Positions 38,335-56,394 of a DNA stretch of 64,000 nt are shown here, piece after piece. The notes under the pieces were generated by a model. It made no database searches. It saw only the letters and a list, made by a program, of their open reading frames with translations, and had not been told where the DNA came from. A program made the translations under genes and the position numbers. Source of the stretch: Planctomycetes bacterium MalM25. GTDB lineage: Bacteria; Planctomycetota; Planctomycetia; Pirellulales; Lacipirellulaceae. Positions within the stretch are counted from its first letter, which is position 1, and each line of letters begins with the position of its first letter. Where the stretch lies: NCBI GenBank assembly GCA_007745835.1, contig CP036424.1:1821001-1885000 (forward strand), written 5' to 3'.

Positions 38335-38425
38335 TACAGTAACTGACGTGGAAGCCAATACACGTCCCGCCGACACAACATCCCAGCAACGCGGGGCCGA
38401 GGCCCTCTCCGCGGACGCCGGTGCT

Positions 38426-40352: not shown

Positions 40353-41429
40353 TTAGAGCGTGATGGTCCCGCCGCCGAGCGGGGCGGTGCAGCCCGTCGT
40401 CTCGGGGACGGTGATCGGCAGCTCACGGAGCCGACGCACCGCTAGCCAGGCGAAGCACTCGGCTTCGAGTGTCTCGCTGCTGAGCTTCCGGTCTTCGACC
40501 CGGTGCACCTCGTCGAAGTGCTCGGCGAGCATCGACATCATGACGGGGTGTTTGACGCCCCCGCCGGTGACCCAGAGAGCCTTGGGCTTCTGTGGCAACC
40601 GCGCCACGGCTCCCGCGACCGCGCGAACGGTGACGGCGCAGAGTGTTGCGGCGCCGTCCTCAACCGAGAGGGGAGACATATCGACGTGGTCGAAATCGAA
40701 GCGGTCGGCCGCCTTGGGAAGGGGGCGCGAGAAGAAGGGCGCCGAGAGGGACTCGGCGACCAACGACTCATTCACGACGCCCGCCGCGGCGAGTTCGCCG
40801 TCGGCGTCGTGCGAGCGTTCGGCCATCTCTTGGCACCACTCATCGAGCAGCCCGCAGCCCGGTCCGGTGTCGCCTGCGATGAGGGCGCCGTCCTCGCCCA
40901 GCCAGGTGACGTTCGCCACCCCGCCCAGGTTGAGCACGGCGACCGGCTTCTCCTCCGAAGCGAACAGTGCGCGGTGGAACATCGAGGCGAGCGGGGCGCC
41001 CTGGCCCCCGCCGGCGATGTCGTTGCGTCGGAAGTCGGAGACCACTTTCAGACCGGTCGCGTGGGCGAGCTGCCACGGGTTGCCGATCTGCCACGTCAGG
41101 CCCTCGTCCGGCACGTGTCGGACGGTGTGTCCGTGGAAGCCAACCACCTGAGCGTTCTTGGCTTCGGCCGGGTGATTCGCCAGCAGCTGGGTGATCGCGT
41201 CGGCGTGGGCGGAGGTGATCTCCTTTTCCAGCCTCAATAGGTCGCTGGTCGGGATATCGTGCTGCGAGGCCTCGATCAGGCGTTCCTGCAGGTCCCCCTC
41301 GTAGGGGAGCGTGAGGCCGTCAACGACCGTGATCTTGGCTTCCCCATCGGTCTTCAATAGGGCCGCATCGACACCGTCCGCCGACGTGCCACTCATGAGT
41401 CCAATCGCTGTGATCGTTTTCGCAGACAA
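40353..41429 (-). CDS. anmK: Anhydro-N-acetylmuramic acid kinase
   Basis: 358 residues. AnmK hydrolyses the 1,6-anhydro bond and phosphorylates anhMurNAc to MurNAc-6-P, the MurQ substrate. The family start GLMSGTSADGVDAALL is clear, followed by GFHGHTVRH, NLGGVANVTWL, AGDTGPGC and VTGGGVKHP. The start is a TTG at 41429, which keeps the ITAIGL strand before the MSGTS motif; the internal ATG is within that motif and would remove it. It shares the 356-base control region with the XylR-like regulator. Confidence 0.95.
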   Translation of the reverse strand: MSAKTITAIGLMSGTSADGVDAALLKTDGEAKITVVDGLTLPYEGDLQERLIEASQHDIPTSDLLRLEKEITSAHADAITQLLANHPAEAKNAQVVGFHGHTVRHVPDEGLTWQIGNPWQLAHATGLKVVSDFRRNDIAGGGQGAPLASMFHRALFASEEKPVAVLNLGGVANVTWLGEDGALIAGDTGPGCGLLDEWCQEMAERSHDADGELAAAGVVNESLVAESLSAPFFSRPLPKAADRFDFDHVDMSPLSVEDGAATLCAVTVRAVAGAVARLPQKPKALWVTGGGVKHPVMMSMLAEHFDEVHRVEDRKLSSETLEAECFAWLAVRRLRELPITVPETTGCTAPLGGGTITL

Positions 41430-41785: not shown

Positions 41786-43030
41786 GTGATACGAGAACCG
41801 ATCTCCACTTCTGGCGCGGGACAGGTCTCCGCCCCGGTCGAGTCGCCCCCCGACTCGCTCAAGCAGATTGCCGTGCTGGTCGAGACCGATTCGAGCGCCG
41901 GTTGCCGGATTATCCGAGGCATCTCGAACTACGCGGAGCGTCACGGCCGGTGGCACCTGCTTCTCGATCCGCGTGACCACGAGCACCGCTCCGCGTTGCC
42001 CGATGGTTGGCAGGGCCACGGCATCATTGCGCGAATCACTTCGCAGAAGCAGCTCGAACAGCTGCAATCGCGTCGTCTGCCCCTGGTGAACGTTGATGAC
42101 GTGATCGAGCCGCAGGAGGGCCTCGCCTCGGTCATCACCGACGAGAGCGCCTTGGCGGAGATGGCTCTCTCGCACCTGCTCGACCGCGGCTTTCGCCAGT
42201 TCGCCTACTTTGCCCCTCCCAGCCTCGATTACTCGAAGCGTCGAAGCTCCGCCTTCGCGCAGAAGGTACAGGATGCAGGCTACCAATGCGCCGTCTACAA
42301 GCCGGGCTACCGCGCCGGACGCCGGCTCAGCTGGGCGGAGCGTCTTAAGCGAGTCGATCGCTGGATCCGGTCACTTCCCCAGCCTATCGGCGTGTTGGCA
42401 GTCGACGCCAACCGCGCCCGGCAGCTCGCCGAGATCTGCCACCTTTCGGGAATCCGCGTGCCGGACGACGTGGCGGTGCTAGCCGGGAGCCTCGATGAGT
42501 TGCTGTGCGATGTCTGCACGCCCCCCTTATCCGCCGTGAATGTCGCCAGCGAGCGGATCGGGCACGACGCGGCCCAGCTGCTCGACGCCATGATCGCCGG
42601 CCACGCCGAGCCCGCCGCCCCGATCGAGATCCCGCCCCGCGGCGTTCAGAGTCGGCAATCGACCGACCTGCTGGCGATCGACGACGAGGAGATCGTCGAC
42701 GCCCTCCGCTACATACGCCACCACGCCTGCCGCGGCATCATTGTGGAGGACATCCTGCGGCAGGTGCCCATCTCGCGTCGGAGCCTGGAGATCCAGTTCC
42801 GTAAGTACCTGGGGCGTTCGCCCGCCCGCGAGATCCGCCGGGTGCAGCTCGAGAAGAGCCGCGACCTCTTGGGACGCCGCGAGCTGTCGATCACCGAGGT
42901 TGCGCTCGCCTGCGGTTTCGCGAACGCGACCCGCTTCGGCGTGGCGTTCAAGAAGGACACCGGCAAGACGCCGCACTCGTTCCGCAAAGAGCTGCTCGCG
43001 GGTCAGCGTCAAACGACGATCGGCGTCTAA
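41786..43030 (+). CDS. XylR-like transcription regulator (LacI-type sensor, AraC HTH)
   Basis: 414 residues. The N-terminal two-thirds (about 30-280) is a periplasmic-binding-protein-like sensor (QIAVLVETDSSAG, RGISNYAERHGRW; DDVAVLAGSLDEL). The C-terminus (about 310-405) is an AraC double HTH (VPISRRSLEIQFRKYLGRSPAREIRRVQLEKS; ITEVALACGFANATRFGVAFKKDTGKTPHSFR). E. coli XylR has this layout and responds to a sugar. Here the position between anmK and wall-peptide genes suggests an amino-sugar or muropeptide ligand (inference). GTG start at 41786. It ends across the convergent serine hydrolase stop. Confidence 0.85.
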   Translation: MIREPISTSGAGQVSAPVESPPDSLKQIAVLVETDSSAGCRIIRGISNYAERHGRWHLLLDPRDHEHRSALPDGWQGHGIIARITSQKQLEQLQSRRLPLVNVDDVIEPQEGLASVITDESALAEMALSHLLDRGFRQFAYFAPPSLDYSKRRSSAFAQKVQDAGYQCAVYKPGYRAGRRLSWAERLKRVDRWIRSLPQPIGVLAVDANRARQLAEICHLSGIRVPDDVAVLAGSLDELLCDVCTPPLSAVNVASERIGHDAAQLLDAMIAGHAEPAAPIEIPPRGVQSRQSTDLLAIDDEEIVDALRYIRHHACRGIIVEDILRQVPISRRSLEIQFRKYLGRSPAREIRRVQLEKSRDLLGRRELSITEVALACGFANATRFGVAFKKDTGKTPHSFRKELLAGQRQTTIGV

Positions 43031-43936: not shown

Positions 43937-45658
43937 ATGCTTCTCTGGGATGATCTCGTCGCCCGTTCGGTCATCACCTGCCCGGAAGGGGGGTGGAAGC
44001 CGACTGCCGTGAGCGCCGCGGTCGAGGCGATCCTTGTGGACGCCGCTGTTCCTGTCGAACGCCAAGTGGTTGGCCATTCGTTCGAGGGGCGCCCGATCGA
44101 GCTGCTCACGCTCGGCGAGGGGCCGAAGCGGGCCATGATGTGGTCGCAGATGCACGGCGACGAGCCGACCCACACCAGCGCGTTGCTGAACTTGCTGCGG
44201 CTGCTGACCGCCGCCGACTCGCCCGCGGAGAAGTTGCTGCGGGGTTTGACGATCGGCATGATCTTGCCGCTCAACCCGGACGGCGCTGAGCGCAACACGC
44301 GGCAGAACGCCCAGGGGATCGACATCAACCGCGACGCGCTCGACTTCGCCACCAGCGAAGGTCGCGCCTTCCGCGCCGCGATCGAAGGCTTCAAGCCCGA
44401 CTACGGCTTCAACCTGCACAACCAGCGGCATCGCTTGGCGGTCGGCAAGCCGCCCGAGCCGGCATCGGTCTCGTTGCTCGTCCCGCCGCTAGACGTGGAG
44501 GACACGCAGACCGACACCGTCCGCGAGGCGAACCGGGTCGCTGCCGTCTTCTGCGAGCGGGTCCGCGAGCACTGCGGCGGCCGGGTTTCTCGCTACGGCG
44601 CCGACTTCATGGCCCGCGCCTTCGGTGAGTGGGTGCAGCGGCAGGGCGTTTCGATCATCCTCGTCGAGGCGGGGGGCTGGCCCGGCAGCGACTTCAAGAC
44701 GCTCGAAGAGATCCACTTTGCCGCGTTCGCCCAAACCCTCGAGGCGATCGCCGCCACCGCCTTGGGCGAGTCCGACGGGCTCGACGCTTGTGACCCGGAT
44801 AGCTACCTGACCCTGCCTCGCTCGTCGGAGTACTTGTTGTACGATCTGGTGATCCGCGGACGCGGCGTCGCGCAGCTGCCCGCCGACAGTGACGAGGCGA
44901 CCCTCGCCGACGCCGCGATCGGAGTCGATTTTCCCTCTCGTAAGGCGGGCGTGCGTTGTGAGCGCGGACTGGTGACCGGGCTCGGCGACCTGCACGAGAA
45001 TGGGGGCGTCGATGTGCTGGAGTCGGATGGCGTCGTGCTGCCCGGCCGCATCCTGTTGGCGACGCCATCGGAGGACGCGTTCGACGAGAGCCCCGCCGAC
45101 TGGGAGTCTCTCGCCGGTTCTGGCGCCACAACAGTCTTGATCCCGATCGATCTGGCCGCGGGTGGGGTTGAGCACCAGGTCGCCGTCGCCAAGCGTTTAA
45201 AAGCCCCGCTCAACGCCGCCCTCATTGCAAGATGGGACGGTGAACTCGAGGGGACCGACAAGGGATTGATCTTGCGCCGGCTCACTCAAGGCCTCGCCGG
45301 GGGCGTCGTGGCGACCATCGGTCCGCTTCCGCAGAAGCTGGTCGAGGCGTGCTGCCGCATGGGCCTGCCCGCGGTCGATCCCGAGACCATCCCGACACGG
45401 CACGATGCGCCGCCCGCGACCGTGGATGACTGGTTGGTCGAGACGCGCCGAGTCGCCGACCAGCTGCGTTGGGAAGAGCGTGGCCGCCTCGGCCTGAACA
45501 CGCCGGCGGACATCGTGCTTGTTGACCCGCAAGATAACGCCATTGCGCAGGACTGCTTGCGGGCCGTCTTGGTGGGCGGTACCGTCGTCCGCGACGCCGA
45601 CGGGTTGAACCACGACTCGCCCGGCCAATGGATCCCGTGGGGCGGGCCGAAGGGATAG
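43937..45658 (+). CDS. M14-family metallopeptidase fused to an amidohydrolase-like C-terminal domain
   Basis: 573 residues. The first 270 are an M14 zinc peptidase: HGDE near 73-76 supplies zinc ligands, NPDG and DINRD are the usual substrate/Arg blocks, NLHN the third ligand, and VEAGG the catalytic Glu. E. coli MpaA of this family cuts the gamma-D-Glu-Dap bond, which fits this context. The C-terminal ~300 residues end in GLNTPADIVLVDP ... VLVGGTVV, like the composite beta-domain of amidohydrolases. No catalytic HxH of an amidohydrolase was seen. First gene of the plus-strand series. Confidence 0.8.
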   Translation: MLLWDDLVARSVITCPEGGWKPTAVSAAVEAILVDAAVPVERQVVGHSFEGRPIELLTLGEGPKRAMMWSQMHGDEPTHTSALLNLLRLLTAADSPAEKLLRGLTIGMILPLNPDGAERNTRQNAQGIDINRDALDFATSEGRAFRAAIEGFKPDYGFNLHNQRHRLAVGKPPEPASVSLLVPPLDVEDTQTDTVREANRVAAVFCERVREHCGGRVSRYGADFMARAFGEWVQRQGVSIILVEAGGWPGSDFKTLEEIHFAAFAQTLEAIAATALGESDGLDACDPDSYLTLPRSSEYLLYDLVIRGRGVAQLPADSDEATLADAAIGVDFPSRKAGVRCERGLVTGLGDLHENGGVDVLESDGVVLPGRILLATPSEDAFDESPADWESLAGSGATTVLIPIDLAAGGVEHQVAVAKRLKAPLNAALIARWDGELEGTDKGLILRRLTQGLAGGVVATIGPLPQKLVEACCRMGLPAVDPETIPTRHDAPPATVDDWLVETRRVADQLRWEERGRLGLNTPADIVLVDPQDNAIAQDCLRAVLVGGTVVRDADGLNHDSPGQWIPWGGPKG

Positions 45659-45692: not shown

Positions 45693-46403
45693 ATGCTCAA
45701 TCGCATCTGGTTCTGGCTGATTGTGATCGGCGTGCTGTACGCGCCGGTGCGGTCGGTGGTCAGGCCCCTGGTCGGTTTTCAGCCCGAGTTGATCGTCGCC
45801 GAGGAGGGCGCCGAGCCCCGAGAGGTGACGCTCTCCGACCTGGGCAAGCGCGTGACCGAGTCAGCCATCGACGGCGCGAACGTGGCGGTGGATCTGCTGC
45901 TCAGCCTGATCGGGATCATGGTCCTGTGGCTCGGCCTGATGCAGGTCGCCAAGGACGCCGGCCTGATTGATGCGTTGGCTTGGTTGCTTCGTCCGCTGAT
46001 GCGTTGGCTGTTCCCCGAAGTGCCGGAGGGTCACCCCGCGCAGGGGGCGATGCTCATGAACATCTCCGCTAACGTGCTGGGGCTCGATAACGCGGCCACG
46101 CCCTTCGGGCTCGCCGCCATGAAGGAGTTGCAGGAGCTCAATCCCGATAAAGAGACCGCCACCAACGCGATGGCGACCTTCCTGGCGATCAACACGAGCA
46201 GCGTCACGTTGGTGCCGATTTCGGTGATCGGCTACCGCATCGCCGCCGGCAGCGACAACCCGGCCGGTCCGTTGGCCTACATCATGCTCGCGACGCTCGT
46301 GAGCACCCTGGTGGCGATCATCGCGGTTCGCACGCTCGCCAAGTTGCCGGCCTTCGCGATCAACCCCGCGGCAAGCGGTGCGGCTGAGGAGGAGGAGTTG
46401 TGA
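45693..46403 (+). CDS. spmA: SpmA-like nucleoside-recognition-domain membrane protein
   Basis: 236 residues with about five membrane helices. SpmA signatures are strong: NISANVLGLDNAATPFGLAAMKELQELNP, then ATNAMATFLAINTSSVTLVP. In Bacillus, spmA-spmB follow the DD-carboxypeptidase gene dacB and affect spore core dehydration; outside sporeformers the role is unknown. Here it lies in a wall-peptide gene series, 34 bases after the M14 gene, and overlaps spmB by four bases, so the two subunits are made together. A transport role is an inference. Confidence 0.9.
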   Translation: MLNRIWFWLIVIGVLYAPVRSVVRPLVGFQPELIVAEEGAEPREVTLSDLGKRVTESAIDGANVAVDLLLSLIGIMVLWLGLMQVAKDAGLIDALAWLLRPLMRWLFPEVPEGHPAQGAMLMNISANVLGLDNAATPFGLAAMKELQELNPDKETATNAMATFLAINTSSVTLVPISVIGYRIAAGSDNPAGPLAYIMLATLVSTLVAIIAVRTLAKLPAFAINPAASGAAEEEEL

Positions 46404-46969
46404 GCGGTTTCCCCGAAGCCTTCGTCGCCGGCGCCGAGATCGTCAGCCAATGGACGGTGCCTTGCGTGATCTTTATGATCGTGCTCGCCGCCAAGCTGCG
46501 CGGCGTGGCGATGTACGAGTCGTTTATTGTGGGGGCCAAAGAGGGGTTCAACGTGGTCATCATGATCATCCCCTACTTGGTGGCGATCCTCTTCGCGATC
46601 AAGGTCTTCCTCGCGAGTGGTCTGTTCGAGGACTTGAAGTGGCTGGCGGGCAAAGTGCTCGGATCGGTCGGTCTGGAGGGGCTGACCGAATCGTTCGAAC
46701 TGCTGCCCCTCGCTTTAACCAAGCCGCTGTCGGGCGGAGCCGCACGCGGTGTGCTCGTCGATCTTTTCGACCGCTTCGGACCGGACAGCTTCTTGGGCAA
46801 CACCGGCTCGTTGATGATGGGCAGCACCGAGACGACCTTCTACGTCCTGAGTGTCTATTTTGGTGCGGTTGGAATTAAGCGGTTCCGCCACACCTTGCCA
46901 GCTTGCCTGATTGCCGATCTGGCCGGTCTGGTCGCGGCGCTCTTGCTCGGGTGGTTGCTGTTCACTTGA
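46400..46969 (+). CDS. spmB: SpmB-like nucleoside-recognition-domain membrane protein
   Basis: 189 residues with about four to five membrane helices (TVPCVIFMIVLAAKL, VIMIIPYLVAILFAIKVFL, AALLLGWLLFT). Family blocks are YESFIVGAKEGFNVVIMIIPYLVAILFAI, then LLPLALTKPLSGGAARG and NTGSLMMGSTETTFYVLSVYFGAVGIK. GTG start overlaps the spmA stop. The pair probably forms one membrane complex. ldcA follows after 14 bases. Confidence 0.9.
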   Translation: MSGFPEAFVAGAEIVSQWTVPCVIFMIVLAAKLRGVAMYESFIVGAKEGFNVVIMIIPYLVAILFAIKVFLASGLFEDLKWLAGKVLGSVGLEGLTESFELLPLALTKPLSGGAARGVLVDLFDRFGPDSFLGNTGSLMMGSTETTFYVLSVYFGAVGIKRFRHTLPACLIADLAGLVAALLLGWLLFT

Positions 46970-46983
46970 CCCGGCCCGAAGAC

Positions 46984-47919
46984 ATGCAGCTGACCCGACC
47001 ACCCGCCCTGAAGCCCGGCGATGCGATCTCGGTCGTGGCGCCCGCCAGCTCGCCCCGCCGCGAGGCTTGTGACCGTGCGCTGGAGGCCCTTGCCAGGGCT
47101 GGCTACACGCCGAAGGTCTACCGCGATTTCTGCCAGCCACACGGTTACCTGGCGGGCGTCGACGCGGAGCGGGTCGATGAACTGGAGCAGGCTTTCCGTG
47201 ACCCGGACACCTCGGCCGTTCTTGCCGTTCGCGGTGGTTACGGTGTGGGGCGGATCCTGGACCGCATCGACTTTGGATTGCTGACCGAACGCCCCAAGAT
47301 TGTCTGCGGGTACAGCGACATCACGGCCTTGCACGCCGCGATCCAGCGCCGCTGCGGGATGATCTCGTTCCACGGCCCCAACCTGATGTCCGGGCTAGGC
47401 GATACGGACGACGACACCCAAGCCGAACGCGATGCGGCCCTCGACCTGTTCACGGGACGACGGGGTGAAGGCGCCGACTTGCTGTCCGGCGCCGCCACGC
47501 CCGCGACTCTCACCGGCGGCGTCGCCGAGGGGCGGCTCGTTGGCGGGAACCTGGCGGTGATGATGTCGCTCCTGGGGACGCCCGACCAGCCCGATTTCTA
47601 CGGCGCCATCCTCTTGCTGGAGGACACCGGCGAGGTCCCGTACCGGGTCGATCGCCTGCTCAACCAGCTCCGCATGAGCGGGCTCTTGCAGCGGATCGCC
47701 GGGGCCGTCCTCGGATACTTCAGCAACGCCGAATCCCGCCGGGGGCCTTCGGTCGATGAGGTCCTGGGCGAGTTTTTCGAGCCGTTAGGCGTGCCGGTGA
47801 TCACCGGGGCTCCGATCGGCCACGAGCACCCGAATCTGACGGCGCCGCTCGGGGCCCGTGTCCGCCTGGACGCCGACGGAAGCCGCCTGCTTCTGGATGA
47901 GGCGGTCGTCTCGCTCTGA
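46984..47919 (+). CDS. ldcA: L,D-carboxypeptidase (muramoyltetrapeptide carboxypeptidase)
   Basis: 311 residues. S66-family LdcA removes the terminal D-Ala from murein tetrapeptides on the cytoplasmic side. Catalytic features: RGGYGVGRIL, the nucleophile Ser in GYSDIT, a Glu in LLEDTGE and the His in GAPIGHEHPN, in the family order. No signal peptide, so cytoplasmic. ATG 46984 gives the family N-terminus (LKPGDAISVVAPAS). It lies 14 bases after spmB and supports the recycling reading of the series. Confidence 0.93.
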   Translation: MQLTRPPALKPGDAISVVAPASSPRREACDRALEALARAGYTPKVYRDFCQPHGYLAGVDAERVDELEQAFRDPDTSAVLAVRGGYGVGRILDRIDFGLLTERPKIVCGYSDITALHAAIQRRCGMISFHGPNLMSGLGDTDDDTQAERDAALDLFTGRRGEGADLLSGAATPATLTGGVAEGRLVGGNLAVMMSLLGTPDQPDFYGAILLLEDTGEVPYRVDRLLNQLRMSGLLQRIAGAVLGYFSNAESRRGPSVDEVLGEFFEPLGVPVITGAPIGHEHPNLTAPLGARVRLDADGSRLLLDEAVVSL

Positions 47920-48056: not shown

Positions 48057-49127
48057 ATGGACGCCAACTCGACCCCGTCTCCCAAGATCGGCGGCAGCCG
48101 GATCGTCATCCTCACCGAGGGGAAGACCGACCCACTCACCGCCAAGACGGCGAACGTCCTGCTCCGCTACCGGGGCGAAGACGTCGTTGCCCTGCTCGAT
48201 TCAACCCAAGCGGGCAAGACGGCCGGCGAGTTGCTCGGCGTTGGCGGCGACACGTCGGTGGTCGCTTCGCTCGACGAGGTGGACCGGCCCGACACGCTGC
48301 TGATCGGCGTCGCGACCGCGGGAGGGAAGATCCCCGCCGAGTGGCGCCTGCTCTGCCACGACGCGATCACCCGCGGCATGAGCCTGGTCTCGGGTATGCA
48401 CGAGTTCTTGTCGGACGACAGCGACCTGGTCGCCGCCGCGGCCCAGGCGGGGGTCGCTATCCACGACGTTCGCAAGAACGACGAGAAGCAGGTCGCCACT
48501 CGCACCGGGATCACCGAGGACTGCCTCCGCATCCTGACCGTCGGGCAGGACTGCTCGGTCGGAAAGATGGTCACCGCCCTGGAGATGGCCCGCGGCCTCG
48601 GGCGGCGAGGCGTCGATGCGAAGTTCGTCGCCACCGGCCAGACCGGCATCCTCGTCGAGGGGGACGGACTGCCGATTGACTGCGTCGTCTCTGACTTCGT
48701 GAACGGCGCCTGCGAGAAGCTTGTTCGCGAAAACCAGCACCGCGAGGTGATGGTGGTCGAGGGGCAGGCGACGATCACTCACCCGCGTTTTTCCGCCGTC
48801 TCGTGCGGCTTGCTGCACGGCGTGAACCCGCACGGCTTGATCCTCGGCTACGAAGCGGGCCGCACCCACATCCGAGGCATGGACCACCTGCCGTTGCCAC
48901 CGCTGCGAGCCGTGCTGGAAGCGTACGAGCACCTCGCGTCCTTCGGCGTGCCGGCGAAGGTGATCGCTATCGCGATGAACAGCCGACGCCTCAACGACGA
49001 TGAGGCCGAAGCCGAGCGCGAGCGGATGCGAGGTGAGTACGGCCTGCCAGTCGCCGATCCGATCCGCCACGGACCCGATGAGCTGAACGACGCCGTCTTG
49101 GCGCTGAAAGCTGCTCGTGCAACCTAG
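48057..49127 (+). CDS. DUF1611 protein, probable D-glutamate N-acyltransferase type
   Basis: 356 residues. An N-terminal alpha/beta domain (about 1-145) is followed by a P-loop-like domain with VGQDCSVGKMVTA (Gly-rich loop and Lys), then VVEGQATITHPRF and GYEAGRTHIRGM. DUF1611 members have been reported to work with an enolase-superfamily racemase to recycle D-glutamate through an N-acyl intermediate (from memory of the DgcN/DgcA system; not checked here). The epimerase gene follows with an 11-base overlap, which supports a joint role. Whether the substrate here is D-Glu or the L-Ala-D-Glu dipeptide is unknown. Confidence 0.8.
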   Translation: MDANSTPSPKIGGSRIVILTEGKTDPLTAKTANVLLRYRGEDVVALLDSTQAGKTAGELLGVGGDTSVVASLDEVDRPDTLLIGVATAGGKIPAEWRLLCHDAITRGMSLVSGMHEFLSDDSDLVAAAAQAGVAIHDVRKNDEKQVATRTGITEDCLRILTVGQDCSVGKMVTALEMARGLGRRGVDAKFVATGQTGILVEGDGLPIDCVVSDFVNGACEKLVRENQHREVMVVEGQATITHPRFSAVSCGLLHGVNPHGLILGYEAGRTHIRGMDHLPLPPLRAVLEAYEHLASFGVPAKVIAIAMNSRRLNDDEAEAERERMRGEYGLPVADPIRHGPDELNDAVLALKAARAT

Positions 49128-50193
49128 CCAACCGCACAACGTGATCGAACTCGCCACCACCGCCTACCAGCTCCCTCTGAAGCACGTCTTCACGATCGCG
49201 CGGGGCTCGACGACCGTCCGCGACACGCTGATCGTCTCGCTCTCGTCGGGCGGGCAGACCGGCTACGGCGAGGCGACGGCCAACTCGTACTACAACGCGA
49301 CAATCCCCGAGCTGCAGGCAGACATTGAGGGCGTCACTCCGCTGCTGGCCGAATTCGACGCGACGGAATACAACTCGACGGAACCCGACACGCTGATTGA
49401 TCGGCTCATCCCTCGCCTGGCTGAGGCGTTGGGCCAGAAGTCGTTCGCTCGGTGCGCACTCGACCTCGCTGTCCACGATCTGTGGGGCAAGCTGCGCGGC
49501 GAGCCGCTCTGGAAGCTGTGGGGACTCGACCCTGCCGACGCGCCGACGTCCAACTACACGATCGGCATCGATTCGATCCCCAAGATGGTCGAGAAGGCGA
49601 AGGAGGTTGCCGATTGGCCTTTGCTCAAGATCAAGCTCGGCACGGAAGAGGATCTCGACATCGTTCGCGAGCTGCGACGGCACACAGACGCGGTCTTCCG
49701 GGTCGATGCGAACTGCGGCTGGACCGCTGAACAGACGATCGCCTTCGCGCCGGAGCTGAAGGAGCTGGGCGTCGAGTTCATCGAGCAACCTCTGCCGGCG
49801 GACGACCGCGAGGGCGCCCGTCGGGTGCGTGAAGAGTCGGCCTTGCCGATCATCGCTGACGAGAGTTGCGTCGGCGAGTCGGACGTGGCCCGATGCGACG
49901 GCCACTTCCACGGAATCAACATCAAGCTCACCAAATGCGGCGGCCTCGCGCCCGCTCGCCGGATGGTCGCCGAGGCCCGCCGGCTCGGGCTGCAAGTGAT
50001 GGCGGGTTGCATGACCGAGTCAACGGTTGGCATCTCTGCGCTGGGCCAACTCGCTCCGATGCTCGACTACGTCGACATGGACGGCGCCGCGCTGCTCGCC
50101 GAAGACATCGCCGACGGCGTTCGCGTCGAGGCGGGGAAGGCGCACTACCCGGACCGGGCCGGTTCGGGGATCGAGCTACTCACGAATCTTTGA
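49117..50193 (+). CDS. Dipeptide epimerase, L-Ala-D/L-Glu type (enolase superfamily)
   Basis: 358 residues. The enolase-superfamily layout is clear: KIKLG (catalytic Lys), metal ligands in DANCGW, EQP and ADES, then NIKLTKCGG (second catalytic Lys) and a C-terminal DMDGAA. In murein recycling this enzyme turns L-Ala-D-Glu into L-Ala-L-Glu. Starts with GTG 49117, inside the 3' end of DUF1611. That coupling also allows an N-acyl-D-glutamate racemase role. Confidence 0.9.
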   Translation: MQPSQPHNVIELATTAYQLPLKHVFTIARGSTTVRDTLIVSLSSGGQTGYGEATANSYYNATIPELQADIEGVTPLLAEFDATEYNSTEPDTLIDRLIPRLAEALGQKSFARCALDLAVHDLWGKLRGEPLWKLWGLDPADAPTSNYTIGIDSIPKMVEKAKEVADWPLLKIKLGTEEDLDIVRELRRHTDAVFRVDANCGWTAEQTIAFAPELKELGVEFIEQPLPADDREGARRVREESALPIIADESCVGESDVARCDGHFHGINIKLTKCGGLAPARRMVAEARRLGLQVMAGCMTESTVGISALGQLAPMLDYVDMDGAALLAEDIADGVRVEAGKAHYPDRAGSGIELLTNL

Positions 50194-50224: not shown

Positions 50225-52294
50225 ATGAGCAAGCACAACACCTGGCTGGCGGTTGCGGTGGCGATCGCGGTGGCGGCACCGGCCGTCGCCAAGGAATCGG
50301 CGCAGGACGCCTTGGCCGCGGCGCTTGGGCCGATGCTCGAATCGCATCAGGGCGAGGTGACGGTCGCGGTCAAGCACTTGAAGACCGGCCGGACCTACTT
50401 GCACAACGCCGACAAGCCGATGTCATCGGCCAGCCTGATCAAGGCGCCGGTGATGCTTACGGCGTACCGGCTGGCCGCCCTCGGGCAGCTTTCGCTCGAC
50501 GATCCGGTCACGCTACGCGAGGAGGACAAGGTCCCCGGCTCGGGCCTGCTGACACCCCACTTCTCCAACGGGATCCAGGTCCCGCTGAGGGATGTGATCC
50601 ATCTGATGATCGCCTGGAGCGACAACACCGCGACCAATTTGGCCATCGAAGCGATCGGGCGTGCGAGCAAGCTCGAAGGCGAGACCGACGCCGCTCGTGG
50701 CATCGCTGAAACCAACGATCTGATGGAGAAACTCGGTTATGAGAACATTAGGCTCAATTCGCTGGTCTACCGAGGCGACACCACGATCGCACCCGATCGC
50801 AGCGAGGCGTACGGCCTCGGGCTGATGTCCGCCGCCGAGACGCTCGACCTCTTCGAGAAGCTTGCGAAAGGCGATCCGGGTGACGGGATCGATGACGCGG
50901 TGGTCGAGGCGTATCGCGCCGAGATGCTCGATCACCTCCGCGCCTGCCAGTACAACGACATGGTTCCGCGATACCTTCCGAAGGGGACCGTAGTCGCCCA
51001 CAAGACGGGCGGCGTGTCCAACGCCCGTTGCGACGCGGGCCTCATCGAGTCGCCAACCGGCCTGATCGCTTACTGCGTGATGACCGACGAGAACGCCGAC
51101 CTCAGCTGGGAGGAGGATGCGGCGCCACACGTGCTGATCGCCCAGATCGGGAAGGCGGCTTACGACTACTTCACCCAAGGCGCCGGGGCGGTCGATGCGC
51201 CGCGCGTGGCGCGGGTGCTCCGCATGGGTCAAGAAGACCCACTCGTTGTTCCGCTGCAGCGCACCCTCAACCGCCGGGTGAAGCCGAGCCCCAAGCTGGC
51301 GACCGACGGCGACTACGGGCCGAACACCCAGAAGGCGGTGAAGGCGTTTCAGAAGCAAGCCAAGATCGCGGTGACCGGCGAGGTCGACGCGGCGACCTGG
51401 AAGGCGCTCGGGCCCCTCGCGATGAGCGACGACCCCGTCCCCCCGCCTGCCGAAGCCCTCAAGGACTTGTCACCGCTTCTGCCAGTGGACCCGCTCGGCC
51501 AACCGGTCACGACTTGTCCTGCTTGGGCGATCGCCGACGGCGAGACGGGCAAGCTGCTGTGGGGCAAAGACGACTCGGTCGTGCGCGACCCGGCGAGCAC
51601 CACGAAGATCATGACCGCCCACCTCGTCTGCCGGTTGGCCCAGCAGGACGCCAAGGTGCTCGACGAGGTTGTCACCTTCAGCGAGCGCGCCGACAAGACC
51701 AGCGGTTCCACCGCCGACCTCCGTGAGGGCGAGCAAGTCAGCGCCGGCGAGCTGCTTTACGGCCTGATGCTCCCCTCGGGCAACGACGCCTCGGTCGCCT
51801 TCGCCGAACACTTCGGGGCCCGCTTGCCGGGTGAAGAGGGCGACACGCCCTACGACCGGTTCATCGCCGCCATGAACGCCGAGGCGAGGCGTCTCGGCAT
51901 GAACGAAACCGGCTACCGCAACACGCACGGCCTCACCGCCGAGGGGCACGTCACCTCGGCCCGCGATCTGGTGAAGCTAGCCCACGCGGCGATGCAGGAC
52001 GGGACCTTCCGCGAAGTCGTCGCGACGCGGCGCTACGCGACGACCGTCTCCTCGACCACCGGTTACCAGCGGAACGTCGTCTGGAACAACACCGACCAGC
52101 TGTTGAAACGCGAGGGCTTCTACGGGGTGAAGACCGGCACCACCGGGCCGGCTGGGGCATGCCTCGTCTCGGCGGGTGAGCGCGACGGCAAGCCGTTGTA
52201 CGTCGTCGTCCTTGGCGCCAACAGCGGCAGCAACCGCTACCTCGACGCCCGCAATCTGTACCGCTGGGCCTGGAATCAACTGGGAGCCAAGTAA
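50225..52294 (+). CDS. Exported fusion: class A-like serine hydrolase, peptidoglycan-binding domain, D-Ala-D-Ala carboxypeptidase
   Basis: 689 residues with a signal peptide ending AVA-K near residue 22. N-terminal hydrolase (about 30-315): SLIK, SDN (AWSDNTATN), HKTGG. Middle (about 335-395): PG_binding_1, with LQRTLNRR and GDYGPNTQKAVKAFQ. C-terminal S11 peptidase (about 430-685): STTK, SGND, KTGTTGPAGACLV. Two penicillin-binding-type active sites and a wall anchor in one chain is unusual. Likely periplasmic trimming of stem peptides. TAATG: the stop overlaps the dipeptidase ATG. Confidence 0.88.
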   Translation: MSKHNTWLAVAVAIAVAAPAVAKESAQDALAAALGPMLESHQGEVTVAVKHLKTGRTYLHNADKPMSSASLIKAPVMLTAYRLAALGQLSLDDPVTLREEDKVPGSGLLTPHFSNGIQVPLRDVIHLMIAWSDNTATNLAIEAIGRASKLEGETDAARGIAETNDLMEKLGYENIRLNSLVYRGDTTIAPDRSEAYGLGLMSAAETLDLFEKLAKGDPGDGIDDAVVEAYRAEMLDHLRACQYNDMVPRYLPKGTVVAHKTGGVSNARCDAGLIESPTGLIAYCVMTDENADLSWEEDAAPHVLIAQIGKAAYDYFTQGAGAVDAPRVARVLRMGQEDPLVVPLQRTLNRRVKPSPKLATDGDYGPNTQKAVKAFQKQAKIAVTGEVDAATWKALGPLAMSDDPVPPPAEALKDLSPLLPVDPLGQPVTTCPAWAIADGETGKLLWGKDDSVVRDPASTTKIMTAHLVCRLAQQDAKVLDEVVTFSERADKTSGSTADLREGEQVSAGELLYGLMLPSGNDASVAFAEHFGARLPGEEGDTPYDRFIAAMNAEARRLGMNETGYRNTHGLTAEGHVTSARDLVKLAHAAMQDGTFREVVATRRYATTVSSTTGYQRNVVWNNTDQLLKREGFYGVKTGTTGPAGACLVSAGERDGKPLYVVVLGANSGSNRYLDARNLYRWAWNQLGAK

Positions 52295-53502
52295 TGACAC
52301 GGGTGTTTCAACTGCTGGCTTTCGCTTTGCTCAGCGCCTTTACCTTCTCGGCTCACGCCGAAGAGCGTGGGCCGATCGAGGTCTCCGAGGAGGCCTTGCA
52401 GCTGCACAACTCGTGCTTGCTGATCGATGGCCACAACGACTTGCCGTGGGAAATCCGCACGAAGGGATCGAGCAACTTCACGAAACTGGACATCTCGCGC
52501 CCGCAACCGAGCCTGCAGACCGACCTGCCGCGAGCCCGCGAGGGGGGCCTGAAGGCGCAGTTCTGGAGCGTCTGGGTTCCCGCGGAACTCGACGGCACGG
52601 GCAAGGCCTTCTCGACCACGCTCGAGCAGATCGAGCTCGTGCGGCTCATGCTCGACCGCTACCCGGATGACCTCGAGTTTGCCGATACCGCCGATGACAT
52701 CGAGCGCATCGCCGGAGAGGGGAAGATCGCTTCGCTGATCGGCGTTGAAGGAGGGCACTGCATTGAGGAGTCGCTCGGCTCGCTCCGCAAGCTGCACGAG
52801 CTGGGCGCTCGTTACATGACCCTCACCCATGGCGACACGATCTCGTGGGCCGATTCGGGGACCGACGAGGAGCGGAACGGCGGACTGACCGAGTTCGGCC
52901 GCGGGGTGGTGAGCGAGATGAACCGCCTTGGCATGATGGTCGATATCTCGCACGTCTCGGTCCAGGTCATGCACCAAGCGATCGACACGAGTTCCGCGCC
53001 GATCATCTTCAGCCACAGCTCTTCCCGGGCCGTAGCGGACCACCCTCGCAACGTCCCCGACGACGTCCTCCGCCGGCTGCCGGAGAAGGACGGCGTGGTC
53101 ATGGTCAACTTTTTCAGCGCGTTCGTCGTGCCGGCGGCGGTCGAGAACTACGCCACGCTCTTCAAACTCCGCCGCAAGCTCCGCGAAGAGGGCCTCGACG
53201 AGGGCGCCGTCAGCTCGCGGGTTGCCGAGTGGCGGGCCAAGAACCGCATGCCAAAAGGAACGATCCACGACTTGCTCGACCACATCGATCACATCGCCGA
53301 GGTCGCCGGTGTCGAGCACGTGGGGATCGGCTCCGATTTTGACGGCGTGAGTGTCCTTCCCGAGGGACTGGAGGACGTCGCCTGCTACCCGAGGATCACG
53401 CAGGGTATGCTAGACCGTGGATACACGCCCGATCAGATCCGGGGCGTGTTGGGAGGCAACCTCTTGCGTGTGATGCGCAAGGCGGAAGCCGTCCGCGAGT
53501 GA
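52294..53502 (+). CDS. Membrane dipeptidase (M19, renal-dipeptidase type)
   Basis: 402 residues with a signal peptide (MTRVFQLLAFALLSAFTFSAHA), so exported. Zinc and catalytic residues are visible: HND in IDGHNDLPW, Glu in GVEGGHCIE, His in DISHVS and FSHSS. M19 enzymes cleave dipeptides including L-Ala-D-Glu-like or D-amino-acid-containing ones. One-base overlap with the upstream fusion gene implies coupled translation. It may release free amino acids from wall dipeptides (inference). Confidence 0.92.
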   Translation: MTRVFQLLAFALLSAFTFSAHAEERGPIEVSEEALQLHNSCLLIDGHNDLPWEIRTKGSSNFTKLDISRPQPSLQTDLPRAREGGLKAQFWSVWVPAELDGTGKAFSTTLEQIELVRLMLDRYPDDLEFADTADDIERIAGEGKIASLIGVEGGHCIEESLGSLRKLHELGARYMTLTHGDTISWADSGTDEERNGGLTEFGRGVVSEMNRLGMMVDISHVSVQVMHQAIDTSSAPIIFSHSSSRAVADHPRNVPDDVLRRLPEKDGVVMVNFFSAFVVPAAVENYATLFKLRRKLREEGLDEGAVSSRVAEWRAKNRMPKGTIHDLLDHIDHIAEVAGVEHVGIGSDFDGVSVLPEGLEDVACYPRITQGMLDRGYTPDQIRGVLGGNLLRVMRKAEAVRE

Positions 53503-53527: not shown

Positions 53528-54943
53528 ATGGCCCTCATCGAAACGACCCCAAACCGGCACAACCGAGCCGACGAAGCGCTTGTCACCGCGCTCCGCCAGC
53601 TCGTCGGCGCTGAGAACGTGCTGACCGAGCCGGTCGACGTCACGCCTTACGCGTTCGACGGCACCGCCGCTTTAAAGCAGCGTCCGGGCTGCGTCGTGCT
53701 GCCGCGTGAAGCGAAACACATTGCGGCGTGCGTCACCACCGTGACCGCCGCGGGGGTTCCGTTGGTGACTCGCGGTAGTGGCACCGGGTTGTCAGGCGGT
53801 AGCGTGCCGCTCGACGGGTGCGTGGTGCTCGGGCTGAATCACCTCGATAGCATTCTGGAGGTCGACACGGCGAACCTGACGATGCGGGTCGAGCCGGGCG
53901 TCATCACGATGCGAGTCGATGAGGAGGCCGCCAAGCACGGCCTCTTTTACCCGCCCGACCCCGGCTCGCAGAAGATCAGCACGATCGGGGGCAACGTCGC
54001 GGAGAATTCGGGCGGGCTGCGCGGTCTCAAGTACGGCGTCACACGCGACTACGTCATGGGGCTTCGAGTCGTCTTGGCAGACGGCCAGGAGGTCTGGCTC
54101 GGCAACCAGTGCGTGAAGGACGTCGCCGGCTACAACCTGAAGGACCTGTTCATCGGCAGCGAGGGGACGCTCGGCGTGGTGACGGAGGTCCTGCTCAAGC
54201 TCCTCCCACGCCCCACCGCCCGTCGGACGATGGTGGCTCAGTTCAGCGAGATCGGCGCCGCGGCGCAGGCGGTCTCGGACATCATCTCGCGAAAGATCGT
54301 CCCTTGCACGGTCGAGTTCCTCGACCAGACGACGATCCGCTGCGTCGAAGACTTCGCGAACCTCGGCCTGCCGATCGGAGCGGCCGCGCTTTTGCTCTTG
54401 GAGTCCGATGGCCACCCCACGGTGGTGGAAGAGGAGACCGAGGCGATGCGTCAGGCGCTCGCGGACAACGGCGCCACAGGCATCGAAGTCGCCAGCGACG
54501 AGCACGAGGCGGAACGCCTTCGCACGGCCCGCCGAGCCGCCTTTTCGGCGCTCGCCCGCGTGAGCCCGACGACGATCCTCGAGGACGTGACCGTCCCCCG
54601 CAGCGAGCTGGCCGATATGGTCCGCTTCATCGCCGCGTGCGCGGATCGACACCGACTCCGGGTCGGCGTCTTCGGCCACATGGGCGACGGCAACTTGCAC
54701 CCGACCTTCCTCACCGACGAGCGGGACGAGGAAGAGATGCCCCGTGTCGAGGCGGCCCTCGCCGAGATCGTCGACGAGACCCTCCGCCGTGGCGGCACCA
54801 TCACGGGCGAGCACGGGGTCGGTCTGGCTAAGAAGCCGTTCCTGCGTCAGCAGCTGGGGGACGCGAGCTACGAGCTGCTGGGTCGAGTCAAAAGGTCGCT
54901 CGATCCCGAAGGCCTCCTGAATCCGGGCAAGGTCTTCGATTGA
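53528..54943 (+). CDS. glcD: FAD-linked 2-hydroxyacid oxidase, GlcD/D-lactate dehydrogenase type
   Basis: 471 residues. An FAD_binding_4 domain (about 45-220; VTRGSGTGLSGGSVP, NVAENSGGLRGLKYG) and an FAD-oxidase C domain (about 225-470; ending EHGVGLAKKPFL and DPEGLLNPGKVF). Family members oxidise glycolate or D-lactate and pass electrons to a partner Fe-S protein. Next to the MurQ island, D-lactate released from MurNAc-6-P is the likeliest substrate, but glycolate cannot be excluded. The stop overlaps the next start. Confidence 0.9.
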   Translation: MALIETTPNRHNRADEALVTALRQLVGAENVLTEPVDVTPYAFDGTAALKQRPGCVVLPREAKHIAACVTTVTAAGVPLVTRGSGTGLSGGSVPLDGCVVLGLNHLDSILEVDTANLTMRVEPGVITMRVDEEAAKHGLFYPPDPGSQKISTIGGNVAENSGGLRGLKYGVTRDYVMGLRVVLADGQEVWLGNQCVKDVAGYNLKDLFIGSEGTLGVVTEVLLKLLPRPTARRTMVAQFSEIGAAAQAVSDIISRKIVPCTVEFLDQTTIRCVEDFANLGLPIGAAALLLLESDGHPTVVEEETEAMRQALADNGATGIEVASDEHEAERLRTARRAAFSALARVSPTTILEDVTVPRSELADMVRFIAACADRHRLRVGVFGHMGDGNLHPTFLTDERDEEEMPRVEAALAEIVDETLRRGGTITGEHGVGLAKKPFLRQQLGDASYELLGRVKRSLDPEGLLNPGKVFD

Positions 54944-56394
54944 GCGAACACGAAACCTCTTTGAATCGCCTGCAAGCTCTGGACTACTCAGTCGTTCAGC
55001 AGTGCATGCATTGCGGCTTGTGCTTGCCGACCTGCCCAACCTATGTGGAGACGGGGCGCGAGCGTTCCAGCCCCCGCGGTCGCATCGCCTTGATGCGCTC
55101 GGTGGCCGATGGCGATCTCGAGTTGTCGCGTGACCTTGCCGAGGAGCTCGACTACTGCGTCGGCTGCTTGGCCTGCCAGACCGCTTGCCCCGCGGGGGTC
55201 GAGTACGTGTCGCTGCTCGAGGCGGGCCGCGCCGCCGGCGAAGAGGCCAAGCTGCTCAGCACGCCCTCGCGGTCGGTCTACCGTTGGCTCGGCATGAAGT
55301 TGCTGATGACCCGGCCGTGGCTCCTGCGCCTGATGGCCCGGGGCGTGTCGATCCAGCAGATCCCGTGGATACGCAAGACACTCTACCGACTCGGCCTGAT
55401 GTACCTTTCACCGCCGGCCCTGAGGAAGCTCGAGCCGACCGCGCCGCTGATGGACCCGCCGTTCAGCGATGCACGCATCGACTCGGTTGAATCGCCCCCC
55501 GCAAAGTGGTGGAAGGGTGAACCTCGCGCCCGGGTCGCGTTGCTTACCGGCTGCGTGCAGGACATTTCTTACGCGCGGGTGAACCGGGCGACCGCCGACG
55601 TGCTGCTCGCCGCGGGCTGCGAGGTGGTAACCCCGCGCGCTCAGCCCTGTTGCGGCTCGCTCCACGCCCACAACGGCGAGGTCGATCTTGCCAAACAGAT
55701 GGCTCGCCGAACGCTCGACCAGTTCGCCCCGGGCGCGTTGACGCCTCTCGACCGCCTTGACGCGGTCATTAGCAACGCGGGCGGGTGCGGCAGCCACCTG
55801 AGACACTACACGAACCTCCTAGGCGATGATCCGGCGTACGCGGAGTTGGCGTCGTCGTGGGACGCCAAGGTCCGCGACGCGCAGGAGTTCGTGTGGCATT
55901 TAGTAGGCGGTAGGCAGAAGGCAGAGGGCAGCAAAGAGGCACCGCCATCGCGGCTTGAAACGGTGCTAGAAGAATCCCCCTCCCCCACAGGGGGAGGGGC
56001 TAGGGGAGGGGGCGCCCCGGGGACGACCTCTTCATCATCAAAACGCCTCACCTACGACGCCTCGTGCCACCTCTGCCACGGCCAGAAGGTGGTGAACCAG
56101 CCGGTCGAGCTTCTCCGCCGCCTGCCCGGGTACGAGTTCGTCCCGCTTGCCGAGTCGGACTGGTGCTGCGGCGCCGCGGGGGTCTACACGATCACCCAGC
56201 CGGAGCAGGCCGGGAAGCTCCTCGAGCGGAAGCTCGGCAACCTGCGGGCGGCCGAACCGGACGTGATCGCGACCGCGAACCCCGGCTGTATGCACCAGCT
56301 GAACCTGGCCAGCCGGGGCGATGAGAGCTTGAAAATAGCCCGGGTCGTCCATCCGATGGAGCTGCTCGCCGAAGCGGTCCACGGATCGAGGTAG
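54940..56394 (+). CDS. glcF: GlcF-type iron-sulfur subunit with an in-frame repeat insertion
   Basis: 484 residues, longer than the usual ~400-430. N-terminal two 4Fe-4S motifs (QCMHCGLCLPTCP; CVGCLACQTACP) and two C-terminal CCG domains (QPCCGSLHAH; DWCCGAAGVYTI). Between them, residues about 321-366 are a low-complexity insert (AEGSKE ... GGGARGGGAP) coded by the repeat element at 55903-56038. The core is otherwise normal. It partners GlcD, taking electrons to quinone. TTG start overlapping the glcD stop. Confidence 0.88.
   Translation: MSEHETSLNRLQALDYSVVQQCMHCGLCLPTCPTYVETGRERSSPRGRIALMRSVADGDLELSRDLAEELDYCVGCLACQTACPAGVEYVSLLEAGRAAGEEAKLLSTPSRSVYRWLGMKLLMTRPWLLRLMARGVSIQQIPWIRKTLYRLGLMYLSPPALRKLEPTAPLMDPPFSDARIDSVESPPAKWWKGEPRARVALLTGCVQDISYARVNRATADVLLAAGCEVVTPRAQPCCGSLHAHNGEVDLAKQMARRTLDQFAPGALTPLDRLDAVISNAGGCGSHLRHYTNLLGDDPAYAELASSWDAKVRDAQEFVWHLVGGRQKAEGSKEAPPSRLETVLEESPSPTGGGARGGGAPGTTSSSSKRLTYDASCHLCHGQKVVNQPVELLRRLPGYEFVPLAESDWCCGAAGVYTITQPEQAGKLLERKLGNLRAAEPDVIATANPGCMHQLNLASRGDESLKIARVVHPMELLAEAVHGSR
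55903..56038. repeat. Repeat/palindrome element inserted in frame in glcF
   Basis: Four degenerate 7-base units G(T/A/G)(A/G)GGC(A/G) stand side by side at 55903-55930. Then a perfect hairpin of C-rich and G-rich arms (55977-55986 with 55990-55999, 3-base loop) is followed by a partial extra G-rich arm. This composition matches dispersed intergenic repeats common in planctomycetes (from general knowledge), but here it is inside an open frame. Ends are approximate. Confidence 0.6.

Follow-up and report, generated by a model that had tools for sequence, protein, structure and literature searches.

A DUF1611-epimerase gene pair, probably of the DgcN/DgcA type, inside a peptidoglycan-recycling cluster of a planctomycete

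In the window (the whole stretch of 64,000 nucleotides of Planctomycetes bacterium MalM25 analysed here), a DUF1611 gene is directly followed by a gene for an enolase-superfamily epimerase, and both lie inside a peptidoglycan-recycling cluster. With moderate confidence, we propose that the two proteins form a DgcN/DgcA-type module, in which acylation precedes racemisation. This reading rests on homology and intact catalytic residues, on a linkage that is conserved and genes that are inherited together, on the surrounding cluster and on the lack of a MurI match. A DgcN-DgcA pathway for D-glutamate was reportedly described by Yu et al. (ISME J, 2023) in marine Proteobacteria and haloarchaea. The D-Glu pathway that a preliminary description of this DNA had invoked does exist, as indicated by the PDB title of 7xrj (N-acetyltransferase DgcN), by the NCBIfam family names (N-acetyltransferase DgcN, N-acetyl-D-Glu racemase DgcA) and by two papers that mention a DgcN-DgcA route for D-Glu (PMC10845958, PMC12363236). 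The pathway itself is already published; what is new is its setting in wall recycling. Among the papers searched, none treats DUF1611 and D-glutamate jointly. The features of the pair are as follows.

48057-49127, + strand: DUF1611 protein, predicted DgcN-like D-amino-acid N-acyltransferase (ATG start, 356 aa; Pfam, NCBIfam and PDB matches)
49117-49127, + strand: apparent 11-base ORF overlap, probably not translated as epimerase (homologue starts)
49141-50193, + strand: enolase-superfamily epimerase/racemase (conserved start, MR_MLE domains, 3iji/3ijq, catalytic residues; first possible GTG at 49117)

The DUF1611 protein comprises a Rossmann-like N-domain and a P-loop C-domain, with matches to PF17396 (91 bits) and PF07755 (224 bits). 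Its best PDB match by sequence is 7xrj (E 6e-61), nearly tied with 2obn, and the homology to DgcN extends over the full length. The structure model (middling confidence, mean pLDDT 71.9, as only 5 sequences were usable), which serves fold confirmation and PDB titles only, matches 2obn best (Z 24.0) and 7xrj second best (Z 21.9, rmsd 7.8, 309 aligned). Together, both Pfam domains and the fold match identify the two-domain fold of the 7xrj type. On the NCBIfam DgcN model NF041892, the protein scores 281 bits over residues 23-346, under the curated cut-off of 480, whereas the DgcN of Vibrio tritonius and Ruegeria score 556 and 551 bits. By analogy with DgcN, it would acylate D-Glu. Below its own family, the fold list contains many succinyl-CoA synthetase alpha chains and related proteins, which match the N-domain, and, lower, dethiobiotin synthetase, which matches the C-domain. 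The 50 fold matches listed include no GNAT-titled entry, which proves nothing.

The epimerase contains the MR_MLE N and C domains (PF02746, PF13378), and 3iji/3ijq are its best PDB matches by sequence and by fold. Its model (also of middling confidence, mean pLDDT 64.9, as only 3 sequences were usable), again limited to fold confirmation and PDB titles, aligns with 3iji at Z 33.9 (rmsd 2.4, 317 aligned). Domains and fold thus place the protein in the MR_MLE enolase superfamily. In the alignment, the KxK, DxN, E, D and K residues, which we take to be the catalytic ones, are all present, as is the DxD motif that presumably binds the dipeptide amine in this family. Scores remain under the cut-offs for the DgcA model NF042940 (242.5 bits, cut-off 400; known DgcA reach 487 and 508) and for the L-Ala-D/L-Glu epimerase models NF011708 (143 bits, cut-off 343) and NF041118 (119 bits, cut-off 500). 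In the epimerase tree, midpoint-rooted like the DUF1611 tree, the window protein groups with the Bacteroides L-Ala-D-Glu epimerase 3ijq (branch support 94/89, without a star). Proteobacterial DgcA and 1jpd form a separate group (100/100). Rows of this tree carry locus labels, so that L082_5408, another kind of enolase encoded at a paired locus, is wrongly counted as linked; the paired Aeoliella epimerase (L135/L142) is left out.

Naming the enzyme by its best HMM match was rejected. The DgcA model fails to separate the two functions: it also gives 222 bits to a Bacteroides dipeptide epimerase that has no DUF1611, and puts a Citrobacter YcjG above its cut-off (430 bits), making automatic names in this branch unsafe. 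A residue signature for N-acetyl versus dipeptide substrates was also discarded, as the ten compared motifs do not separate the two; DxD is kept in the DgcA rows except Rhodococcus (HxD). Nor was Arg29 retained as a marker: among the displayed clade III rows linked to DUF1611, most have Arg at this position and some have His, and the Bacteroides type lacks it.

The nearest solved relative binds L-Ala-D-Glu. The enzyme could be a plain L-Ala-D/L-Glu epimerase, converting the dipeptide in muropeptide recycling before its hydrolysis, with DUF1611 a mere neighbour working on free D-Glu or on something else. We consider this unlikely. It agrees with 3iji/3ijq having been crystallised with L-Ala-D-Glu and belonging to the same clade, with the M14, LdcA and dipeptidase genes close by, and with the clade relatives away from DUF1611, which adjoin a C40 peptidase (Bacteroides) or an M14 peptidase (L088). 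In addition, the epimerase is the sole match at E 1e-40 in its genome among 15 candidates scored (the next listed has 28% identity). The window epimerase shares fold, catalytic residues, DxD and muropeptide-recycling context with the known L-Ala-D/L-Glu epimerases (YcjG/1jpd; Bacteroides 3ijq). Unlike them, it is linked to and co-occurs with DUF1611, whereas the Bacteroides and Citrobacter epimerases lie next to a peptidase (C40 or MpaA), and the stretches examined there hold no DUF1611. A passage of a review names such epimerases partly for want of a reported L-Ala-D-Glu peptidase (PMC5808125).

What argues against this reading, and for a joint module, is that the two genes are nearly always both present or both absent and are inherited as pairs; with a plain dipeptide epimerase, DUF1611 would be needless. 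In 246 Planctomycetota genomes, an epimerase of the same kind lies directly downstream on the same strand at 42 of the 64 full-length DUF1611 loci, and 22 lack an adjacent one (full-length meaning DUF1611 matches of at least 130 bits, and epimerase matches going down to about E 1e-28 only). The adjacency is more than chance, and the window pair shows the same arrangement. In the order sample of 117 genomes, with DUF1611 matches accepted up to E 1e-3 and epimerase matches up to E 1e-40, 37 contain both genes, 2 DUF1611 only, 1 the epimerase only and 77 neither. Outside the window's family the counts are 22, 2, 1 and 76, versus 13, 11, 20 and 57 in the same categories for the control gene AnmK (E 1e-3). 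In 8 of those 22 genomes, the two genes are on different contigs. Proteins on the DUF1611 tree group according to the clade of their partner epimerase, which requires 2 changes, the minimum (shuffled mean 10.5; 0/200 as low), a count that leaves out 21 rows without a group and assigns the Aeoliella DUF1611 to group III via the 47% identity of its epimerase to the window protein. Taken by itself, group III requires 2 changes, and in 38% of bootstrap trees a single branch separates it from the rest. Overall, the pairing is real and old. Against the proposed module count the scores of both proteins under the DgcN and DgcA cut-offs, the clade of the epimerase, the 22 loci without an adjacent one, and Aeoliella, where the cluster has kept DUF1611 and is missing the epimerase. 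In viral contigs, 25 pattern matches included 0 relatives.

The two ORFs lie where the preliminary description had placed them; the 11-base overlap reported there exists on paper only, as it needs the first GTG at 49117 (49117-50193, + strand, 358 aa). GTG 49141, residue 9 of this ORF and 13 bases past the DUF1611 stop, is the most likely start, judging from homologues. A first comparison covered 39 other same-strand DUF1611/epimerase combinations, or 38 with L123 left out, where the gene is 2.5 kb away. All 38 pairs have a start codon at residues 7-10 of the window protein (residue 10 in 28, residue 9 in 3), and in 22 a start there gives a 4-base overlap with the DUF1611 stop. In a second comparison, in which L154 is locus L062 of the first, a start at residues 8-10 is found in 17 of 18 pairs (L156 has no start codon there), with 4-base overlaps in 7 of 18. 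L161 likewise repeats L063, from a genome reached twice. Three genomes of the same genus start at residue 9, with gaps to DUF1611 of 83, 85 and 90 bases. Because homologues and same-genus genomes start at about the equivalent of GTG 49141, the 11-base overlap is probably an artefact of start choice; the tight adjacency of the genes is real. The idea that the overlap forces joint expression is not supported, given congeners without overlap and the 8 genomes with the genes on separate contigs. A promoter and terminator scan yielded 0 promoters, and 2 terminator-like elements versus 1.3 by chance, an uninformative result.

The pair is surrounded by the following genes.

33814-35958, - strand: gamma-glutamyltranspeptidase (TIGR00066, 458 bits, cut-off 357.85)
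36671-38212, - strand: sodium:solute symporter, candidate importer of wall fragments (PF00474, 116 bits; TIGR00813, 187 bits, cut-off 184)
38237-39361, + strand: MurQ, MurNAc-6-phosphate etherase (TIGR00274, 386 bits, cut-off 302)
39408-40325, + strand: BadF/NagK-like amino-sugar kinase (PF01869, 75 bits; NagK 98 bits, cut-off 370)
40353-41429, - strand: AnmK, anhydro-MurNAc kinase (NF007141, 410.6 bits, cut-off 352)
41786-43030, + strand: XylR-type regulator, periplasmic-binding-like sensor and AraC HTH (domain search; homologues in most family clusters)
43937-45658, + strand: M14 zinc peptidase, weakly MpaA-like (PF00246, 47 bits; MpaA model 27 bits, cut-off 157)
45693-46403 and 46400-46969, + strand: two Gate-domain membrane proteins, possible transporter (PF07670, 58.6 bits and 25.1, the latter under the cut-off of 29.6)
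46903-47919, + strand: LD-carboxypeptidase (S66, LdcA-like), exact start uncertain (PF02016, PF17676)
50225-52294, + strand: fusion of class A beta-lactamase-like, PG-binding and S11 D-Ala-D-Ala carboxypeptidase parts (Pfam), N-terminus signal-peptide-like by eye; homologue after the pair in most family clusters
52294-53502, + strand: M19 membrane-type dipeptidase, candidate splitter of L-Ala-D-Glu (PF01244, 376 bits)
53528-54943, + strand: GlcD-like FAD oxidase (GlcD 494 bits, cut-off 567.9)
54940-56394, + strand: GlcF-like Fe-S protein (GlcF 250 bits, cut-off 333)

Thus, the pair lies among AnmK, MurQ, LdcA, M14, M19 and D,D-carboxypeptidase genes, in a cluster largely conserved in the family. 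AnmK shares a contig with DUF1611 in all 15 family genomes having DUF1611, at a distance of 10 kb or less in 11; outside the family, most examined pairs are without wall-recycling neighbours. Anhydromuropeptide recycling in Gram-negative bacteria relies on AnmK, MurQ, NagK, LdcA and MpaA. The window resembles this set in its AnmK and MurQ, both over cut-off, and its LdcA and M14 genes. It differs in its candidate transporters, the symporter and the Gate proteins, and in holding the DUF1611 pair and the GlcDF-like proteins, a candidate oxidase for D-lactate released by MurQ. As for DgcN-DgcA loci, the gene order and the conserved catalytic residues are alike, whereas in the window both proteins are under the cut-offs, the epimerase belongs to another clade and the pair is within an anhydromuropeptide-recycling cluster. 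Moreover, the Vibrio fortis locus has a LysR regulator and the Vibrio tritonius and Ruegeria loci a D-amino-acid transaminase, neither of which is among the genes annotated at 33.8-56.4 kb.

The earlier proposal that both proteins act on D-Glu from stem peptides is backed by co-occurrence, co-inheritance and this cluster. As to all substrates, the acyl donor and the order of steps, we infer the following route. LdcA would take off D-Ala, the M14 peptidase would cut the gamma-D-Glu-DAP bond, and M19 or another peptidase would release D-Glu from L-Ala-D-Glu. DUF1611 would then N-acylate D-Glu, with acetyl-CoA as donor by analogy with DgcN. The epimerase would remove and return the alpha-proton by means of its two lysines, which flank a bound metal ion, to yield N-acyl-L-Glu. 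Finally, a deacylase would give L-Glu, or N-acetyl-L-Glu would enter arginine synthesis. No deacylase was identified among the cluster genes of the window; in the genome, ArgJ and one M20D amidohydrolase score over cut-off. In one other family (10 genomes with DUF1611, 8 neighbourhoods examined), 7 of the 8 loci have an M20D amidohydrolase gene after that of the epimerase, one member scoring 360 bits on TIGR01891 (cut-off 153.75), which would supply the expected deacylase step. Such neighbour counts come from chosen loci (59, 20 and three stretches) and are not a random sample, a limit that does not concern the 64-locus and the order and family co-occurrence counts.

The epimerase might also serve two uses, accepting muropeptide-derived L-Ala-D-Glu as well as the N-acyl-D-Glu that DUF1611 forms from free D-Glu; we regard this as quite unlikely. 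Both substrates are N-acylated D-Glu, the genome has one such enzyme, and the recycling and DUF1611 contexts meet in this cluster. The two activities are found in proteins closely related to each other, as the named DgcA and the YcjG/1jpd epimerases fall in one clade and differ little in their catalytic and DxD residues. Against this, such dual use is deduced from chemistry.

MurI has no match in the genome and none over cut-off among the 117 order genomes, which gave 4 weak partial matches. Because the cell has no recognisable MurI, it would need the dedicated D-Glu route proposed above. Alternatively, the pair could run toward D-Glu, with N-acetyl-L-Glu racemised and then deacylated, ArgJ being present, for wall synthesis. 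This seems highly improbable: since only 37 of the 117 genomes have the pair and none has MurI over cut-off, most must obtain D-Glu otherwise, and the window pair sits among degradative genes. DapF is proposed as the D-Glu source for the superphylum in a passage of PMC5885031. Under the degradative module that we favour, the pair is a direct, testable planctomycete candidate for the fate of own or scavenged wall D-Glu in bacteria without glutamate racemase.

More speculatively, and with low confidence, DUF1611 proteins may be a family of D-amino-acid N-acyltransferases in which each lineage is co-inherited with its own lineage of enolase-superfamily epimerase, making "acylate, racemise, deacylate" a general scheme for different D-amino acids. 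In the MurI-less Lacipirellulaceae, the module would be wired into anhydromuropeptide recycling and may send wall D-Glu as N-acetyl-L-Glu to arginine synthesis. In one Planctomycetota DUF1611 lineage (3rit-like), the partners are akin to an epimerase whose crystals contain L-Arg-D-Lys, a hint that the substrates may be cationic.

The pair considered here is a DUF1611 gene followed by an enolase-superfamily epimerase gene, and it lies among these features of the window:

48057-49127 (+): DUF1611 gene
ending at 50193 (+): epimerase gene
50225-52294: beta-lactamase/S11 fusion, one protein with class A beta-lactamase-like, PG-binding and S11 D-Ala-D-Ala carboxypeptidase domains
neighbours above cut-off: MurQ, AnmK
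other neighbours: NagK-like kinase, sodium:solute symporter, gamma-glutamyltranspeptidase, M14 peptidase, Gate proteins, LdcA, M19 dipeptidase, GlcDF-like oxidase
30365-33769 (-), upstream of the cluster: one large protein carrying Golvesin_C and fn3 domains plus a weak Amidase_3 domain
21740-22924, 24385-25644, 26017-27204 and 59924-61027 (-): ORFs with a prepilin-like motif, or its start

The host genome (4.72 Mb, single contig) is that of a Lacipirellulaceae planctomycete, probably of the genus Botrimarina; three sample genomes belong to the same genus. Among named relatives, Botrimarina hoheduenensis comes closest at this locus (80%, DUF1611 protein), followed by Aeoliella straminimaris (60%); judging from coordinates, one of the three sample genomes is this B. 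hoheduenensis.

Both Pfam domains are matched in the window DUF1611 protein, which resembles PDB 7xrj ('N-acetyltransferase DgcN-25328') by sequence (E 6e-61) and in predicted structure (fold Z 21.9, rmsd 7.8, 309 aligned). It scores 281 bits with the DgcN model, under the cut-off of 480; two named DgcN proteins reach 551 and 556. The epimerase has MR_MLE domains; its catalytic residues are as expected and the DxD motif is present. Its nearest solved relatives, 3iji and 3ijq, are a Bacteroides thetaiotaomicron dipeptide epimerase with L-Ala-D-Glu. It scores 242 bits with the DgcA model, under the cut-off of 400, and 143 and 119 bits with two models for AEE, the L-Ala-D/L-Glu epimerase. As controls, a Bacteroides epimerase encoded beside a C40 peptidase, without DUF1611, scores 222 bits with the DgcA model and Citrobacter YcjG 430 bits; the DgcA model cannot tell the two functions apart. 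Given these scores and this control, our claim is limited to the pair working like DgcN-DgcA (N-acetyltransferase and N-acetyl-D-Glu racemase of the known D-Glu route), a function predicted for both proteins. For the same reasons, equivalog status (DgcN, DgcA or AEE) was not assigned to either protein.

In the DUF1611 structure model (m9b343b92b76e, 48057-49127), the N-domain resembles the CoA-binding domains of ATP citrate lyase and succinyl-CoA synthetase (for example 6hxj, Z 11.1, rmsd 3.0, 118 aligned), and the C-domain fold resembles dethiobiotin synthetase 3of5 (Z 8.3, rmsd 3.9, 175 aligned). Although the protein is a predicted acetyltransferase, a P-loop-like GxDxxxGKM motif is invariant in 5/5 aligned proteins.

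The pairing of DUF1611 with the epimerase is real. Across the 246 Planctomycetota genomes searched, 64 full-length DUF1611 loci are spread over 60 genomes, and in 42 of the 64 the next gene downstream, on the same strand, is the epimerase; DUF1611 adjoins 32 of the 42 epimerase matches of at least 213 bits. In the sample of 117 genomes of the order Pirellulales (limits E 1e-3 for DUF1611 and E 1e-40 for the epimerase, the latter chosen to exclude other enolases), DUF1611 occurs in 39 and the epimerase in 38: both are present in 37, DUF1611 alone in 2, the epimerase alone in 1 and neither in 77. Outside the window's family these numbers are 22, 2, 1 and 76, compared with 13, 11, 20 and 57 for the control gene AnmK (any match); given the non-independence of the genomes, no probability is attached to the counts. 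The two genes are on separate contigs in 8 of these 22 both-gene genomes, which are drafts. Contig breaks cannot account for all separated pairs, because some lie deep inside contigs, as in genomes G351 and G328, the latter with no epimerase within 9 kb after DUF1611. As exceptions, 22 of the 64 DUF1611 loci lack an adjacent epimerase, 11 of them lying in two DUF1611 branches that have no epimerase partners. In a Fimbriimonadaceae MAG (L065, 2752-4921) the order is reversed, with the epimerase ORF upstream of the DUF1611 ORF and overlapping it.

DUF1611-adjacent epimerases fall mainly into three deep groups of the epimerase tree, in which the Fimbriimonadaceae row was left unplaced. Group I includes proteobacterial DgcA as well as E. 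coli 1jpd (support 100/100), group II includes Methylococcus 3rit (100/96), and group III (94/89, not starred) unites the window epimerase with a 3iji relative from Bacteroides finegoldii, which matches 3iji with 722 bits across all 338 residues. The DUF1611 tree sorts by the same three groups (minimum 2 changes; shuffled mean 10.5, with 0/200 shuffles reaching the minimum; 21 ungrouped rows excluded), a signal to which shared genome ancestry contributes.

The DgcN-DgcA route is already described in excerpts of PMC10845958 and PMC12363236. In those of the latter, dgcN carriers include Bacteroidetes, Marinisomatia and Woeseiales, and Planctomycetia are named separately as possible D-amino acid recyclers, not joined to dgcN. 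A limited literature search found no paper that links the route to planctomycetes or to the recycling of peptidoglycan. Three elements are new: the pair's setting in wall recycling, an epimerase of a different group, and a DUF1611 tree that sorts by partner.

In the family sample, DUF1611 is present in 15 of 16 genomes. AnmK lies on the DUF1611 contig in every one of these 15, at most 10 kb away in 11 and at most 36 kb away in all, and the epimerase adjoins DUF1611 in 14 (13 of 14 neighbourhoods compared, plus the window). Only Aeoliella departs from this: its wall-recycling cluster (L063/L161) has DUF1611 but no epimerase, and a second DUF1611-epimerase pair (L142), with a XylR-type regulator, lies elsewhere. 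Homologues of the 50225-52294 fusion lie 3' of the pair in most family clusters. Among the loci chosen for comparison outside the family, neighbours are mostly different. An M20D amidohydrolase lies 3' of the epimerase in 7/8 loci of another family, an Amidohydro_3 gene is found upstream in L077 (group III), a similar gene downstream in L110 (group II), and a third match of this kind overlaps the pair on the opposite strand in L108. The model that these three genes match was formerly named D-glutamate deacylase. M19 is directly upstream of DUF1611 in L105 (group II). Such M20D, Amidohydro_3-type and M19 neighbours would be expected if N-acyl-D-Glu is an intermediate; as a counter-case, a group III epimerase not adjoining DUF1611 (L088) has an M14 peptidase neighbour. 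A D-amino-acid transaminase lies 3' of dgcN-dgcA in the known systems of Ruegeria TM1040 (L067) and Vibrio tritonius (L066); in the latter, the two dgc genes share 1 base.

Alternatively, the window epimerase may act on the dipeptide itself, a reading favoured by excerpts of the review PMC5808125, where the E. coli and Bacillus epimerases are proposed partly because a peptidase for L-Ala-D-Glu is unreported. The most likely flow would run from LdcA through M14 and a dipeptidase to DUF1611 and the epimerase, and then to a deacylase or arginine synthesis; M19 as the dipeptidase step is a guess. M19 enzymes accept L-D dipeptides. The window's genome has a match over cut-off to ArgJ and one to an M20D amidohydrolase. 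MurI (TIGR00067) had no match there and none over cut-off in the order (0/117 genomes, four weak partial hits); the same model matched 10 of 14 control genomes, 8 over cut-off. Because MurI was not found, recycled D-Glu would need another way back to L-Glu. Excerpts of PMC5885031 state that many superphylum members are without MurI, with DapF proposed instead. It does not follow that the pair is the general D-Glu source, since 77 of the 117 order genomes have neither gene.

The preliminary description had the two genes overlapping by 11 bases. Their ORF coordinates are confirmed, and bases 49117-49127 are common to both, provided that the epimerase begins at its first GTG. The overlap itself is probably an ORF-calling artefact, because homologues start at residue 7-10, congeners have gaps and the upstream frame is unconserved. 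A start codon occurs at window-protein residue 7-10, mostly 9 or 10, in 38/38 other pairs (39 lines minus L123) and in 17/18 pairs of a separate set; in 22/38 and 7/18 this conserved start and the DUF1611 stop share 4 bases. Residue 9 of the window epimerase is GTG 49141, 13 bases beyond the DUF1611 stop. All three congeners start the epimerase at residue 9, after intergenic gaps of 83, 85 and 90 bases, with no conservation of its frame upstream of that residue. By eye, neither candidate start in the window has an obvious Shine-Dalgarno sequence. An inverted repeat that the window lacks (GGAACGAAGGAAC type, by eye) is present in the 83-85 base gap of two congeners (L152, L153).
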